From Bradyrhizobium sp. STM 3809 (lineage in GTDB: Bacteria > Pseudomonadota > Alphaproteobacteria > Rhizobiales > Xanthobacteraceae): a stretch of DNA of 32,994 bases. Made by a program: the position numbers and the translations under genes. Positions 21,453 to 26,982 of the stretch are shown here, piece after piece (position 1 is the stretch's first letter; each line of letters begins with the position of its first letter). The notes beneath the pieces were generated by a model. That model was not told the DNA's origin. It ran no database searches and was given only the letters and a program-made list of their open reading frames with translations. The stretch covers positions 1 through 32,994 of the forward strand of contig NZ_CAFJ01000137.1 in the NCBI RefSeq assembly GCF_000239795.1. Direction: 5' to 3'.

Positions 21453-22205
21453 TTAACGGCCTTGGCCGTGCCAATCCCCCAGGGTCGCCTGCAGCAGGGC
21501 CAGCGCCGCCACCCCCGCGGTATCGGCCCGGAGGATGCGTGGCCCGAGCGCCAGCCTGACCAGTTGCGGCTGCCGCAGCAGGAGCTCGCGCTCCTCGGCG
21601 GCGAAGCCGCCTTCGGGGCCGATCAGGAGATCGATGCCGGCATGCGCGCCGGCGCCGCGCAGCGCCTGCACGGGATCGGCGACGTCGGCCGCCTCGTCGC
21701 AGAACACCAGCAGGCGCGAAGCCTGCCGCTCGCGCAGGAAGCGCTCCAGCGGCACCGGGTCCCTGACCTCGGCGAGGCTGAGGATGCCGCATTGCTCGGC
21801 CGCCTCGATCACATTGGCGCGCATGCGCTCGCCGTTGATCCGCGACACCTGGGTGTGGCGCGTGACGACCGGCTGCAGCACGGCCGCGCCCATCTCGACC
21901 GCCTTCTGCGCGATGTAGTCCAGCCGCGCGTGCTTCAGCGGCGCAAACACGTAGGCGATGTCGGGGAGCCGGTCCTGCGGCCGGAGGCGCTGCTGGACGG
22001 TCAGCAGGTCCGCCCGCTTGCGGCCGGCGATCGTGGCCTGCCATTCGCCGTCGCGGCCGTTGAACACCAGCACCCGGTCGCCGGCGCCGAGGCGCAGCAC
22101 GTTGCCGAGATAGTTGCTCTGGTTGCGATCCAGTGCGACGGCGCCGCCCTCCAGCAGCGGGGCGTCGACGTACAGGCGCGGGGCGTTGGAGTCGTAGTCG
22201 GGCAT
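21453..22205 (-). CDS. rsmE: 16S rRNA m3U1498 methyltransferase RsmE
   Basis: Methylates N3 of U1498 in 16S rRNA, in the mature 30S subunit. The 250-residue product has an N-terminal PUA-like domain (RLYVDAPLLEGG to VLVFNGRDGEW) and a SPOUT knot domain. The cofactor-binding motifs LLIGPEGGFAAEE and LALGPRILRADTAGVAAL are the RsmE signature. KAVEMGAAVLQPVVTRHTQV is also characteristic. It heads the minus-strand run rsmE-hisZ-hisG, with 120 bases between rsmE and hisZ, and is divergent from the four-cysteine gene pair and ubiA. Confidence 0.96.
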   Translation of the reverse strand: MPDYDSNAPRLYVDAPLLEGGAVALDRNQSNYLGNVLRLGAGDRVLVFNGRDGEWQATIAGRKRADLLTVQQRLRPQDRLPDIAYVFAPLKHARLDYIAQKAVEMGAAVLQPVVTRHTQVSRINGERMRANVIEAAEQCGILSLAEVRDPVPLERFLRERQASRLLVFCDEAADVADPVQALRGAGAHAGIDLLIGPEGGFAAEERELLLRQPQLVRLALGPRILRADTAGVAALALLQATLGDWHGQGR

Positions 22206-22423: not shown

Positions 22424-22909
22424 GTGATCAACAGATGTTCCACTTGGGCCGTCCTGGCCCTCGCCGCGGCCACCGTGCTGCTGCCCGCCGTGCCCGCTCG
22501 GGCCGATGACAAGAGCGTCGGCGCGCCGCAGGCGGCCAATCCGGCGGCCTCCAACGGCACGAGCGTGGGCAACTTTCGTCCGCCCGAGAGCTGCCTGAAG
22601 GAATTCACGCCGCTGCGCGACGAGGCCGCCCGCCGCGCCCAATTGCTGAAGATGGCGCCGGGACACCGATTCGCGCCAGGAGAGGCCTGCCGGCTGGTGC
22701 ATGATTACGAGCTCGCCCAGACCAAGATGCTCGAATACGCCGTCGCGCATGCCTCGACCTGCGGCATCCCGGCCAAAATCACCGACCAGCTCAAGGCGAA
22801 TCACGAAAACACCCTGACCGTGATGCGTAAGGTCTGCACCGTGACATGGAACGTTGCGCCCGGCGTGGGCTCGTTCCTCTCCGCGTCCGGACCGAAGCAG
22901 CCCGGTTGA
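22424..22909 (+). CDS. secreted four-cysteine protein, paralogue 1
   Basis: A 161-residue exported protein of unknown function. Signal peptide residues 1-26 end VPARA before DDKSVG. The conserved domain runs from PPESCLKEFTPLRDEA through EACRLVHDYELAQ and TCGIPAKITDQLKANH to MRKVCT. It has four cysteines at equivalent places to the next gene, so two disulfides are plausible. The start GTG at 22424 is chosen because AGGAGAGA lies five bases before it and because the paralogue begins with an equivalent xTGATCA start. The domain is helical and charged. I do not recognise it as a named family; similar proteins are conserved hypotheticals in Bradyrhizobium. Confidence 0.82.
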   Translation: MINRCSTWAVLALAAATVLLPAVPARADDKSVGAPQAANPAASNGTSVGNFRPPESCLKEFTPLRDEAARRAQLLKMAPGHRFAPGEACRLVHDYELAQTKMLEYAVAHASTCGIPAKITDQLKANHENTLTVMRKVCTVTWNVAPGVGSFLSASGPKQPG

Positions 22910-23163
22910 GCGAAGGCTTCCGACCGGCGCGAGGACATCGTCACCGAGCGGAAGCGGAGATGAACGAAATCCGAGGCTGGATCTCGGAATGCAAATCAGC
23001 GGCCCGTGGGTTCACCGGCATGGAACCGCGGCTGCGTCCCTGCGCCGCGGGGGCGGCCAACTCCGCAGTTGTGCTGGGCGGGCGAGAATCGTAAAAGCCC
23101 CGGATTGGATCGCGCTTTCGTCCGGAAGTGTTGAGGATTCTTGGTCTTGCCGGAGAACCAGCC

Positions 23164-23850
23164 TTGATCAGCCGCCATCCCATCGTGCCATTCGTCGTCG
23201 CTGCTGCCCTGCTGTCCAATGGCGGCCATGCAATGGCGCAAGGCGCGTTTCCCGCGCCGCTGCCGGGCCAGACTCAAACCCAGACGCAGAGCAACGCTTC
23301 ACCGTTTCCGCCCATCAATGGCAGTGCGCCCGCGCCTGCGCCGATGGCGGCGCCCGCCAATGCATTTCCCCCTGCCGGCCCGGCGGCTTTCGGTGGCGGC
23401 GGCGGTGGCTTCGCGGCGCCGCCGCAGCAGGTCGGCCCCGGCGAAAGCTGCATGAAGGAGTTCGTGCCGCTGCGTGAGGAGGCCGAGCGCCGGGGCAAGC
23501 TGATCCAGGCTGCGAGCAAGCGCAAGGCGACCCCGGTCGAGGCCTGCAAGCTGTTCAAGAGCTTCAGCCAGGCCGAGGTCAAGATGATCAAATACATCGA
23601 GGCCAACTCGGCACGCTGCGGCATTCCCGGCCAGATCGCCGAGCAGTTGAAGACCAACCACAAGGGCACCGAGGGCATTCAGCAGAAGGTCTGCACCGTC
23701 GCCGAGCAGATGCAGAAGGGCGGCGGCCCGGCCGCCCAGCCTGGCCTGAGCGACGTGCTCGGCACGTCGGCTGCACTGCCGGAGGCGAATGCGACGAAGA
23801 AGGGCGGCTCGACCTTCGATTCGCTCACCGGCAACCCGCTCACCCGATGA
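23164..23850 (+). CDS. secreted four-cysteine protein, paralogue 2
   Basis: A 228-residue exported protein, a tandem duplicate of the preceding gene. Signal peptide residues 1-25 end GHAMA before QGAFPA. A Pro/Ala/Gln-rich linker of about 60 residues follows, with a Gly run, GGGGGGFAAPP, just before the domain. The four-cysteine domain has GESCMKEFVPLREEAERR, EACKLFKSF, RCGIPGQIAEQLKTNH and QQKVCT. A tail of about 45 residues beyond the last Cys includes KKGGSTFDSLTGNPL. The start is probably TTG 23164 (GGAGA nine bases upstream; same TGATCA context as paralogue 1); a GTG at 23128 is less likely. Its stop overlaps the ubiA start, so it is co-translated with ubiA. Confidence 0.82.
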   Translation: MISRHPIVPFVVAAALLSNGGHAMAQGAFPAPLPGQTQTQTQSNASPFPPINGSAPAPAPMAAPANAFPPAGPAAFGGGGGGFAAPPQQVGPGESCMKEFVPLREEAERRGKLIQAASKRKATPVEACKLFKSFSQAEVKMIKYIEANSARCGIPGQIAEQLKTNHKGTEGIQQKVCTVAEQMQKGGGPAAQPGLSDVLGTSAALPEANATKKGGSTFDSLTGNPLTR

Positions 23851-24779
23851 GCGACAGCGCCGTCCGCGTAGCTGACGCGACCGGCAACTGGGTCGACACG
23901 CTGGCGCCGGTGTGGAGCCGGCCGTATCTGCGGCTCGCCCGCTACGATCGCCCGATCGGGTCGTGGCTGCTGCTGATGCCGTGCTGGTGGTCGGCCGCGC
24001 TGGCTGCGGGGATTTCCGGCGACCTCTCGATGCTTCCGCTCTGGGTCGGCTTGTATTTCGTCGGCGCCTTCGCGATGCGCGGCGCCGGCTGCACCTGGAA
24101 CGACATCACCGACCGCGACCTCGACGCCAAGGTGGAGCGTACGCGCTCCCGGCCGATCCCCGCCGGGCAGGTGGGCGTGAAGCAGGCGCTCGCCTTCCTG
24201 GTGGCGCAGGCCCTGGTCGGCCTCGTGGTGCTGCTGCAATTCAACCGCTTCGCGATCGGCACGGGCATCGCCTCGCTGCTCATCGTCGCGATCTATCCCT
24301 TCATGAAGCGCATCACCTGGTGGCCGCAGACGGTGCTGGGGCTGGCCTTCTCCTGGGGCGCGCTGATGGGCTTTGCCGTCGCGTTCGGCCGCATCGATGC
24401 GACCGCGCTGCTGCTCTACGCCGGCTCGATCTGCTGGGTGATCGCCTACGACACGATCTACGCGCATCAGGATGCGGAGGACGATGCGCTGATCGGCATC
24501 AAGTCGACGGCGCGGCTGTTCGCCGAGCGCACGCATCTGGCGCTGGTGGTGTTCTATTCGCTCGCGGTCGTGCTGATCGGAGCAGCCTTCGCCACCGCTC
24601 ATGTGCACGTGGCGGCGTGGCTGGGCCTCGCCTGCTTCGCCGCGCATCTCGCCTGGCAGGTCCGCAGGCTGAACACCGCGGATCCCGCGCTGTGCCTGCG
24701 GATTTTCAAGTCCAACCGCGATGCTGGATTGCTGCTGTTCGCCGCTCTCCTGGTCGACGCCGTGCTGCGCGCGAGCTGA
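23847..24779 (+). CDS. ubiA: 4-hydroxybenzoate polyprenyltransferase UbiA
   Basis: Integral membrane enzyme that attaches the polyprenyl tail to 4-hydroxybenzoate in ubiquinone synthesis. The 310-residue product has the two aspartate-rich motifs of the family: NDITDRDLDAKVERTRSRP (first, binding the polyprenyl diphosphate through Mg2+) and AYDTIYAHQDAEDD (second). It has about eight or nine hydrophobic segments. The N-terminal RLARYDRPIGSWLLLMPCWW is typical of proteobacterial UbiA. It overlaps the upstream secreted gene by four bases (ATGA). Its stop abuts the stop of the convergent gene with no spacer. Confidence 0.96.
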   Translation: MSDSAVRVADATGNWVDTLAPVWSRPYLRLARYDRPIGSWLLLMPCWWSAALAAGISGDLSMLPLWVGLYFVGAFAMRGAGCTWNDITDRDLDAKVERTRSRPIPAGQVGVKQALAFLVAQALVGLVVLLQFNRFAIGTGIASLLIVAIYPFMKRITWWPQTVLGLAFSWGALMGFAVAFGRIDATALLLYAGSICWVIAYDTIYAHQDAEDDALIGIKSTARLFAERTHLALVVFYSLAVVLIGAAFATAHVHVAAWLGLACFAAHLAWQVRRLNTADPALCLRIFKSNRDAGLLLFAALLVDAVLRAS

Positions 24780-25304
24780 TCAGCTCCGCGCGATGATCTC
24801 GCGTTCGCCGCGATGGACCGAGGCGGGATTGAGAAGGTGCCCGACACGGCGGCGCATCAGGAAACGCGGACGGCGCGACCGGATGGCATTGCGGCGCCGG
24901 CGCCGCGGCGCAGCGTCGCGCTTCGGCTCCTGAAGCTGCGGCAGCGCGAAGGTCTCGCTCCACATCGCCCAGGCGGTCACGATCTCGTCCTGGTCGTCGC
25001 TGACGCAGATCGGGATGCTCAGCGAGGGGTCGCGGTGCGCGAGGATCAGCATCATCTGCGTGTCGTCGATCTCGCGCAGCGCGATGCCGAGGAAATCGCT
25101 GACCCGGAGGTTCAGGGCCATGCGCATGCCGCTCACGGCACGGCGCAGGACCACGCGCTCCCGGTGCAGTTCGATCTGCCGGATCCCGCCATCGGCACGG
25201 GTGTCGTGCGCGCTGTACGAGACGGGCAGGGAAAGAGGGTCGAGCCGCAGGACGCGGCCCGACCCAGCGGAATTGCTTCCGCCTGTTGCTGTTTGACGCC
25301 TCAC
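24780..25304 (-). CDS. DUF6101-like protein of unknown function
   Basis: A 174-residue protein, probably cytoplasmic. The N-terminal two thirds look like a compact beta-rich domain (SLPVSYSAHDTRADGG, QIELHRERVVLRRAVSGMRM, RVSDFLGIALREID, MLILAHRDPSLSIPICVS). A strongly basic segment follows (RRRRRNAIRSRRPRFLMRRR). It resembles a short conserved family seen in Bradyrhizobium and Rhodopseudomonas that I recall as DUF6101; the match is from memory. The GTG start is preceded by GGGGAGA at eight bases. It is convergent with ubiA, with adjacent stop codons. The basic tail might bind nucleic acid or acidic lipid, but this is a guess. Confidence 0.75.
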   Translation of the reverse strand: MRRQTATGGSNSAGSGRVLRLDPLSLPVSYSAHDTRADGGIRQIELHRERVVLRRAVSGMRMALNLRVSDFLGIALREIDDTQMMLILAHRDPSLSIPICVSDDQDEIVTAWAMWSETFALPQLQEPKRDAAPRRRRRNAIRSRRPRFLMRRRVGHLLNPASVHRGEREIIARS

Positions 25305-25581: not shown

Positions 25582-26982
25582 GTGTTCGTGACCTCTTCCC
25601 CAACAGCTGCCGCATCATCGACCTCCGCCCATTCAGATCTGCTCGATCAGTCCGCCCTGAGAACGCTCGCCGAGCGGCTGGTCGAGGCCGCGAAGAAGGC
25701 CGGCGCCGATGCCGCCGATGCGATCGCCGTGCGTGGCATCTCGCAGGGCGTGGAGGTGCGTGACGGGCGCGTCGAGGAATCCGAACGCTCCGAAGGCGAC
25801 GATGTCGGCTTGCGCGTGCTGGTCGGCAAGCGCCAGGCCGTGGTGTCGACGAACGACGTCAGCGGCGACGGCGTCGCGCGGCTCGCGGAGCGCGCGGTCG
25901 CGATGGCGCGCGTGGCGCCTGATGACAAATATGTCGGGCTCGCCGATCCAGAGCTGCTGGCGCGCGAGATTCCGGAGCTCGACCTGCTCGATCCGCACAT
26001 CCCGGGGACTGCGGAGCTGGAGCGGCGGGCCCAGGAAGCGGAGGCTGCGGCGCTCGCGGTCAAGGGCGTCACCAAGTCGGGCGGCGCGTCGGCCTCGGCC
26101 GGCATCGGCGGCATGGTGCTGGTGACGAGCAGCGGCTTTCACGGCGCCTATCTGCGCTCGAGCCAGAGCATCTCGACGACCGCCATCTCCGGCGAAGGCA
26201 CCGGCATGGAGCGCGACTACGACTACACGGCCGCACCGCATGGCGCCGACCTGCTGGCACCCACGGCCGTCGGCCGCAGCGCCGGCGAGCGCGCGGTGGC
26301 GCGCGCCAATCCGCGCAAGGTCGCGACCTGTCAGGTCCCGGTCGTGTTCGATCCCCGCGTGTCGGGCTCGCTGGTCGGCCATCTCGTCGGCGCCATCAAC
26401 GGCGCCTCGATCGCGCGCAAGACCAGCTTCCTCAAGGACAAGCTCGGCGCGCAATTATTCGCCAAGGGCATCCGCATCATCGACGATCCCTTGCGTCGGC
26501 GCGGCCTGCGCTCGCAGCCCTTCGACGCCGAGGGGGTGAAGGTGAAGAAGACGGCGCTCGTCGACGACGGCGTGCTGACGACCTGGCTGCTGGATTCCGC
26601 GACGGCGCGCGAGCTGGGTCTCGTGACCACCGGCCACGCGCATCGCGGCGTCTCGTCCTCGCCGTCGCCGGGCCCGTTCAATCTGCATCTCGAGGCCGGC
26701 GTCGTGACGGCCAAGGAGCTGATCTCCGACATCAAGCAGGGCTTCTACGTCACCGACCTGATCGGCTCCGGCGTCAATGGCGTCACCGGCGACTATAGCC
26801 GCGGCGCCTCCGGATTCTGGATCGAGAATGGCGAGATCGGCTATGCCGTGAGCGAGGTGACGATCGCCGGCCATCTGTTCGAGATCTTCAAGTCGATGAC
26901 CCCGGCTAGCGATCTCGAATTCCGCTATGGCGTCAATGCGCCGACGGTGCGCATCGAAGGGCTCACGCTTGGCGGACGGTGA
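25582..26982 (+). CDS. pmbA: TldD/PmbA family metalloprotease-like protein (TldE)
   Basis: Member of the TldD/TldE family; in E. coli the TldD-TldE heterodimer degrades unfolded peptides and processes microcin B17 and the CcdA antitoxin. The 466-residue product has the family N-terminal domain (GRVEESERSEGDDVGLRVLVGKR, residues about 59-85) and the C-terminal GFWIENGEIGYAVSEVTIAGHLFEIF segment. It lacks the HExxxH zinc motif of TldD, pointing to the PmbA/TldE partner. The tldD gene is not in this window. The start is GTG 25582 or GTG 25588; neither has a strong ribosome site. Its last 14 bases overlap the next gene. Confidence 0.93.
   Translation: MFVTSSPTAAASSTSAHSDLLDQSALRTLAERLVEAAKKAGADAADAIAVRGISQGVEVRDGRVEESERSEGDDVGLRVLVGKRQAVVSTNDVSGDGVARLAERAVAMARVAPDDKYVGLADPELLAREIPELDLLDPHIPGTAELERRAQEAEAAALAVKGVTKSGGASASAGIGGMVLVTSSGFHGAYLRSSQSISTTAISGEGTGMERDYDYTAAPHGADLLAPTAVGRSAGERAVARANPRKVATCQVPVVFDPRVSGSLVGHLVGAINGASIARKTSFLKDKLGAQLFAKGIRIIDDPLRRRGLRSQPFDAEGVKVKKTALVDDGVLTTWLLDSATARELGLVTTGHAHRGVSSSPSPGPFNLHLEAGVVTAKELISDIKQGFYVTDLIGSGVNGVTGDYSRGASGFWIENGEIGYAVSEVTIAGHLFEIFKSMTPASDLEFRYGVNAPTVRIEGLTLGGR

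Follow-up and report, generated by a model that had tools for sequence, protein, structure and literature searches.

The window analysed here is a stretch of 32,994 nucleotides from Bradyrhizobium sp. STM 3809. It contains two neighbouring genes, referred to as GeneA and GeneB, that lie between a divergently oriented rsmE and ubiA (Table 1). Among UbiA-family enzymes, the product of the gene downstream of GeneB is an ordinary UbiA; it matches the NCBIfam model TIGR01474 with an E value of 5e-106 and 354.3 bits, above the curated cut-off of 275.45. The stop codon of GeneB and the ATG of ubiA (23847) overlap as ATGA, which confirms the four-base overlap described in the first-pass annotation. 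A DUF6101 gene on the minus strand (24780-25304) is convergent with ubiA and abuts it, and its linkage to ubiA is patchier. A promoter and terminator scan of the window gave no signal exceeding shuffles, and no Rfam family matched the window at gathering scores.

Table 1. Features of the rsmE-ubiA interval and its flanking genes, in window coordinates.
Feature	Position	Strand	Description
rsmE	21453..22205	-	divergent upstream neighbour; PF04452 and PF20260
GeneA	22424..22909	+	161 aa, GTG start, signal-peptide-like N-terminus, four-cysteine domain; tail-less tandem paralogue
GeneA four-cysteine domain	22580..22846	+	89 residues, C-x31-C-x23-C-x24-C
GeneB Shine-Dalgarno core GGAG	23152..23155	+	8 nt before TTG
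GeneB	23164..23850	+	228 aa, TTG start, conserved ubiA-proximal member, ATGA overlap with ubiA
GeneB Pro/aromatic-rich linker	23239..23436 (approximate limits)	+	FPAPLP and SPFPPxNG motifs
GeneB four-cysteine domain	23437..23715 (end approximate)	+	predicted three-helix bundle
GeneB C-terminal tail	23740..23847	+	LSDVLGT...GGSTFDSLTGNPLTR; conserved, lowest pN/pS of the protein; GeneA without tail
ubiA, 4-hydroxybenzoate octaprenyltransferase	23847..24779	+	TIGR01474, PF01040

GeneA and GeneB are paralogues, as had been claimed, with 45% identity over 97 ungapped residues (BLASTP E 9e-32, single comparison). The motifs ESC, EAC, CGIP and KVCT are present in both, with the four cysteines in the same order and register, and both proteins show the family pattern C-x(30 to 40)-C-x23-C-x24-C. 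The linker before the domain is long and proline-rich in GeneB and shorter in GeneA, so the difference in linker length also holds. In the GeneB linker (23239-23436) and in relatives (e.g. L018, L019), the number of SPFPPVNG/FPAPLP-like motifs varies, as if they were duplicating. By eye, both N-termini resemble signal peptides, and both proteins are probably exported, as was first supposed. A Shine-Dalgarno core lies a few bases 5' of both starts. GeneB starts with TTG at 23164, followed by ATC at 23167; the GeneB queries used in the searches started at 23167, one codon inside the open reading frame. The GTG and TTG starts are confirmed. Their shared xTGATCA context had been taken as a relic of a local duplication and does not bear this out. 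The best starts assigned by script in the 80 named loci (the best 80 of 224 relatives, mostly Bradyrhizobium) are ATGATC in 53, TTGATC in 14 and GTGATC in 2, with none found in 5; xTGATC is the usual start of the family in Bradyrhizobium and is not peculiar to GeneA and GeneB.

Both genes are under purifying selection. For GeneB, dN/dS is 0.16-0.22 against strain SSBR45G, B. aeschynomenes and BTAi1 and 0.25 against STM 3843; the corresponding values for GeneA are 0.24-0.32 and 0.41. Together with the conservation described below, these values rule out chance open reading frames in both cases.

GeneB belongs to a probably exported family to which the libraries searched assign no named domain. 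Neither GeneA nor GeneB has a match in Pfam or PHROGs, and nothing in NCBIfam comes near its cut-off (a dihydroorotase match of GeneA reaches 13.7 bits against a cut-off of 645), in agreement with the earlier failure to recognise a named family. A sequence search of the PDB with GeneB gave no match, and a search with the family profile gave non-significant matches alone (best E 0.059, to a molecule named sohair); no convincing relative among solved structures emerges from either search. No account of the GeneB family or of its role was found in the open-licence PMC literature, nor was an exported accessory protein of UbiA found there. To our knowledge, no such accessory protein has been described.

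Members of the GeneB family were found in 193 of the 196 genomes sampled from four Hyphomicrobiales families. These are the family of the window's genome (f1, 116/119) and the families f42 (60/60), f50 (5/5) and f20 (12/12), the last three counted by targeted searches. The three misses in f1 are probably assembly gaps, because a convincing UbiA is missing as well: G042 and G049 have no UbiA match, and G030 has weak ones (best E 8e-6) of the sort given by other prenyltransferases. A profile search of the order matched 39 of 297 genomes, which come from f1, f20, f42 and f50, and a profile search of the class matched 4 of 289, all from f1 or f42. Most genomes sampled from other families, within the order and within the class, are without the gene, and ubiA was seen in 26 of these. 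The nearest named relatives are in strain SSBR45G and B. aeschynomenes (best 80 of 224), and tblastn found no plasmid copies. A contig labelled as a Reyranella metagenome-assembled genome (L250) carries a Bradyrhizobium-like GeneB locus, possibly owing to a binning or naming error.

Within the family, the cysteines are invariant. All four are found in 116/116 f1 loci, in 28/28 loci of the other families (11 of f42, 5 of f50 and 12 of f20), in 4/4 further loci and in 80/80 named loci (best 80 of 224); a looser pattern finds them in 50/50 more f42 loci. The last two spacings (x23 and x24) are exact in 114/116, 28/28, 4/4 and 80/80 (best 80 of 224) of these sets, respectively, and the two remaining f1 loci have four cysteines with shifted spacing. 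According to a simple script, a signal-like N-terminus is present in 115/116 f1, 28/28 other-family and 80/80 named (best 80 of 224) members.

AlphaFold2 predicts three helices in the GeneB domain (2-28, 33-61 and 65-93 of the modelled stretch, most of which has a pLDDT of about 96) and a disordered tail. A second model, from 19 rows of f42, f50 and f20 members only, places the helices at 7-27, 34-58 and 66-106; the two models are not independent, because 14 of the 19 rows are common to both alignments. The C2-C3 and C3-C4 distances hardly vary, and C1-C2 absorbs the loop changes. An up-down-up bundle would put C1 with C3 at one end and C2 with C4 at the opposite one. Since the predicted helix geometry puts those cysteines at the same ends, 1-3 and 2-4 disulfides are favoured, and the core is probably pinned by them. 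Structure prediction had been proposed as a means to see whether the four cysteines pair; it yields the bundle and a geometry that favours 1-3/2-4 pairing, the pairing itself being read from the model.

The predicted fold does not point to a particular family. Foldseek gave no match at E 0.001 (best E 0.62). VIA-align returned MIT domains and designed bundles, the best natural row being the MIT domain 4a5x (Z 9.8, rmsd 1.5, 73 residues); such Z scores are, as the tool notes, common for helical bundles. The MIT domains of Vps4, MITD1 and spartin are three-helix bundles, as is predicted for the GeneB domain, but they have no sequence match to GeneA or GeneB. Pfam gives no MIT match for either protein, and MIT is not among 25 of the 28 families listed for 60 members. 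MIT domains are cytoplasmic. A fold name is therefore withheld: the rows are generic helical bundles, and the absence of a family among them excludes nothing.

ScwA of Salmonella, a protein with an LprI domain, may serve as an example of a possible mode of action, as an analogy and not as a relative of GeneB. According to its report, ScwA is exported and has four conserved cysteines, which form two disulfide bridges needed for stability and predicted to run first-to-third and second-to-fourth; it is periplasmic and controls the levels of cell-wall enzymes (PMC7933661). Four conserved cysteines and, to judge from the predicted signal peptide, export are common to ScwA and the GeneB family. However, the cysteines of ScwA are at positions 30, 100, 237 and 259, a different spacing, and, unlike for GeneB, no link to ubiA is reported in the part of the source available (PMC7933661). 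The LprI profile (PF07007) matched neither GeneA nor GeneB at E up to 1, and LprI is not among 25 of the 28 families listed for 60 members (E up to 0.5).

The position of the gene is also nearly constant. In 198 of 200 genomes of the four families and in 80/80 named loci (best 80 of 224), the next gene downstream is ubiA; the two sets overlap in species and are not independent. In all of the 116 f1, 28 other-family, 4 further f1 and 80 named loci, the gene is on the same strand as ubiA and ends at most 300 nt from the inferred ubiA start. The same distance holds for 49 of 52 further f42 genomes, with one more at 396 nt and two (G724 and G729) in which the genes are apart. By adjacency to ubiA, GeneB is a member of this family, and GeneA is one gene further off. 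A neighbourhood survey had been expected to show whether a pair of genes always precedes ubiA. It is one gene and not a pair: a single copy is present in 114/116 f1 loci and 73/80 named loci (best 80 of 224), and the pair as a conserved unit is rejected. The link to ubiA itself stands, apart from G724 and G729, where it is broken. The flanks are kept less well than the GeneB-ubiA pair: rsmE is not found in 13 of 78 f1 loci that extend some 2.5 kb upstream, and 34 of 78 have no DUF6101 gene in the 2 kb downstream.

In 18 of the 26 ubiA loci from genomes without the gene, rsmE lies in the upstream stretch (at most 1.5 kb) of ubiA, and a search of these 26 loci with the family profile at E 0.1 picks up no open frame of at least 60 codons. 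The GeneB family probably arose between divergent rsmE and ubiA in an ancestor of the four families. The gene order could reflect one insertion kept by synteny alone. An unrelated envelope protein would then have been inserted between rsmE and ubiA and kept as a carrier of the ubiA promoter and ribosome entry, the two products being independent. Because rsmE lies close upstream of ubiA in most of the gene-less loci, such an insertion would have captured the expression signals of ubiA, and the persistence of GeneB without a downstream ubiA in two genomes also fits. Yet a gap separates the gene from ubiA in 115 of 220 loci with an assigned start, where the two would be easily separable, and they are split in just 2 of 200 genomes. 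We consider this account rather unlikely, though a serious contender.

The end of GeneB is its most constrained part. In 79 of the 80 named loci (best 80 of 224), pN/pS is 0.10 for the last 15 residues, 0.23 for the tail, 0.31 for the domain and 0.39 for the linker. Synonymous change is also lower in the last 15 residues (pS 0.28 vs 0.37-0.49 elsewhere in GeneB), so selection may act partly on the nucleic acid itself. The tail is present in 116/116 proximal f1 copies (112 by pattern, 4 by eye). Its motif differs by family, with GGTFDTLTGN in f1 and PxGxL or LRLQ-like endings elsewhere, and a search for the GeneB tail in other proteins of the window's own genome found none (second match E 2.0).

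In overlapped loci, the same region precedes the ubiA start. All 102 overlapped ubiA starts of the f1 and named loci (best 80 of 224) are without GGA, GAG or AGG in the Shine-Dalgarno window, which fits termination-reinitiation and is no proof of it. Among gapped starts, a four-base core, a three-base core and no core are found in 11, 18 and 26 of 55 f1 loci and in 1, 14 and 20 of 35 named loci (best 80 of 224); all these starts are assigned by script, and two scripts differ and give different overlap counts. As a test of coupling the comparison is weak, because gapped starts are often coreless, because in other families a three-base core precedes two of the three overlapped starts, and because the bases scanned in overlapped loci fall in conserved tail codons. 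The coupling-like anatomy would also be expected if the region were a mere leader for ubiA with a dispensable peptide. This explanation is disfavoured to the point of being scarcely credible: the protein is under purifying selection, its cysteines are invariant across four families, the tail is conserved, and the gene is retained in two genomes without ubiA downstream.

Additional copies of the gene set the tail apart from the core. Thirteen were found: in the window (GeneA), SSBR45G, B. aeschynomenes, BTAi1, STM 3843 (two), B. jicamae, B. lablabi (two), B. erythrophlei, G004 and G725 (two). None of the 13 has the tail. GeneA forms a clade (100/99) with copies from SSBR45G, B. aeschynomenes, BTAi1 and one from STM 3843; BTAi1 and STM 3843 are, we assume, photosynthetic strains. 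The B. erythrophlei copy clusters with the proximal gene of the same genome (99/90), and a B. jicamae copy pairs with a B. lablabi copy (100/99), so several duplications are indicated. The local duplication seen at first is real insofar as GeneA is a tandem copy. A duplication private to the window is ruled out, since copies from five strains make up the GeneA clade and separate events gave rise to others. The placement of a very long copy (L069) is unsure. The B. erythrophlei copy ends short of the fourth cysteine and may be decaying. In G725, the two dispersed tail-less copies are far from ubiA (L297 4308-4757 and L298 4347-4784), and one of them precedes, by eye, a thiolase-like open reading frame. 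The function of GeneA has probably changed or is partial, because it keeps the core and lacks the tail.

These observations could be explained by a dedicated periplasmic partner of UbiA, which would dock on the outer face of the enzyme or on prenylated intermediates and stabilise or regulate it through the C-terminal peptide. Adjacency in 198 of 200 genomes, the ATGA overlaps, the survival of the GeneB-ubiA pair when other neighbours change, and the tail in all 116 proximal f1 copies and in none of the 13 extra ones are in its favour. However, most sampled genomes of other families are without the gene, 26 of these having ubiA, and G724 and G729 keep the gene and its tail at the old place, with ubiA elsewhere and outside the family clade. 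On balance, such a dedicated partnership is unlikely.

In G724 (L303) and G729 (L324), the gene with its tail stays at the apparent old place, where no ubiA is found. Downstream are a weak DUF6101 match (E 0.001-0.002) and IMP and DUF4170 genes, and in G729 rsmE is divergently upstream. Each genome has ubiA elsewhere (L351 and L350, respectively). In the UbiA tree, the 25 f42 rows sampled, two of which are identical, fall into a single clade (100/99). G724 and G729 pair with each other (100/100) outside this clade, and their position near f50 is weakly supported (83/73; the bootstrap is not fully settled). The likeliest explanation is that in both genomes a ubiA from outside the family, located elsewhere, has taken over from the native gene, and that GeneB stayed at an old locus that otherwise looks largely intact. 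The GeneB orthologue would then be more than a leader and not bound strictly to the native UbiA, because it is kept with a foreign-looking ubiA elsewhere. This suggests that GeneB is worth keeping without an adjacent ubiA, which weakens the case for a dedicated partnership. A single origin was also considered and rejected: it needs one change in the UbiA tree, but support is weak (31/13), and once further f42 rows are added together with the two displaced genes, the labels need two to three changes.

The reading we favour, tentatively and with a little less than even confidence, is that GeneB is an exported envelope adaptor with its own function, the production of which is tied to UbiA. GeneB would be exported by its signal peptide, fold into a disulfide-pinned three-helix core, and bind a partner through its disordered, strongly conserved C-terminal peptide. 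To judge from the anatomy of the overlap, ribosomes that finish GeneB most likely begin ubiA by termination-reinitiation where the two genes overlap, and GeneB and UbiA would be made together because of this. GeneB most likely acts as an adaptor on the periplasmic side and not just as a leader, and GeneA is a tandem copy with the core and without the tail. A link of GeneB to quinones may be read from gene order alone.

A bolder proposal builds on the DsbA/DsbB relay, in which electrons pass to ubiquinone. GeneB could be a periplasmic reporter of quinone status, its disulfides made via DsbA/DsbB, within an exported feedback loop on ubiquinone synthesis. When quinone is scarce, GeneB would be reduced and unstable; the C-terminal peptide would pass the redox state to UbiA or another envelope partner, and copies that lack the tail, GeneA among them, would serve as uncoupled receivers or as decoys. 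We regard this proposal as very improbable.

GeneB occurs in 193 of 196 sampled genomes of the four families, Bradyrhizobium included, nearly always beside a gene for a core respiratory cofactor. Quinone synthesis, the envelope or ubiA expression alone may depend on it, and each outcome would be informative; G724 and G729, with their displaced ubiA, provide a natural comparison. Elsewhere in the window, an open reading frame of the inositol-phosphatase family begins within the end of the PmbA/TldD gene (26927-26982), and the matches overlap in many relatives.
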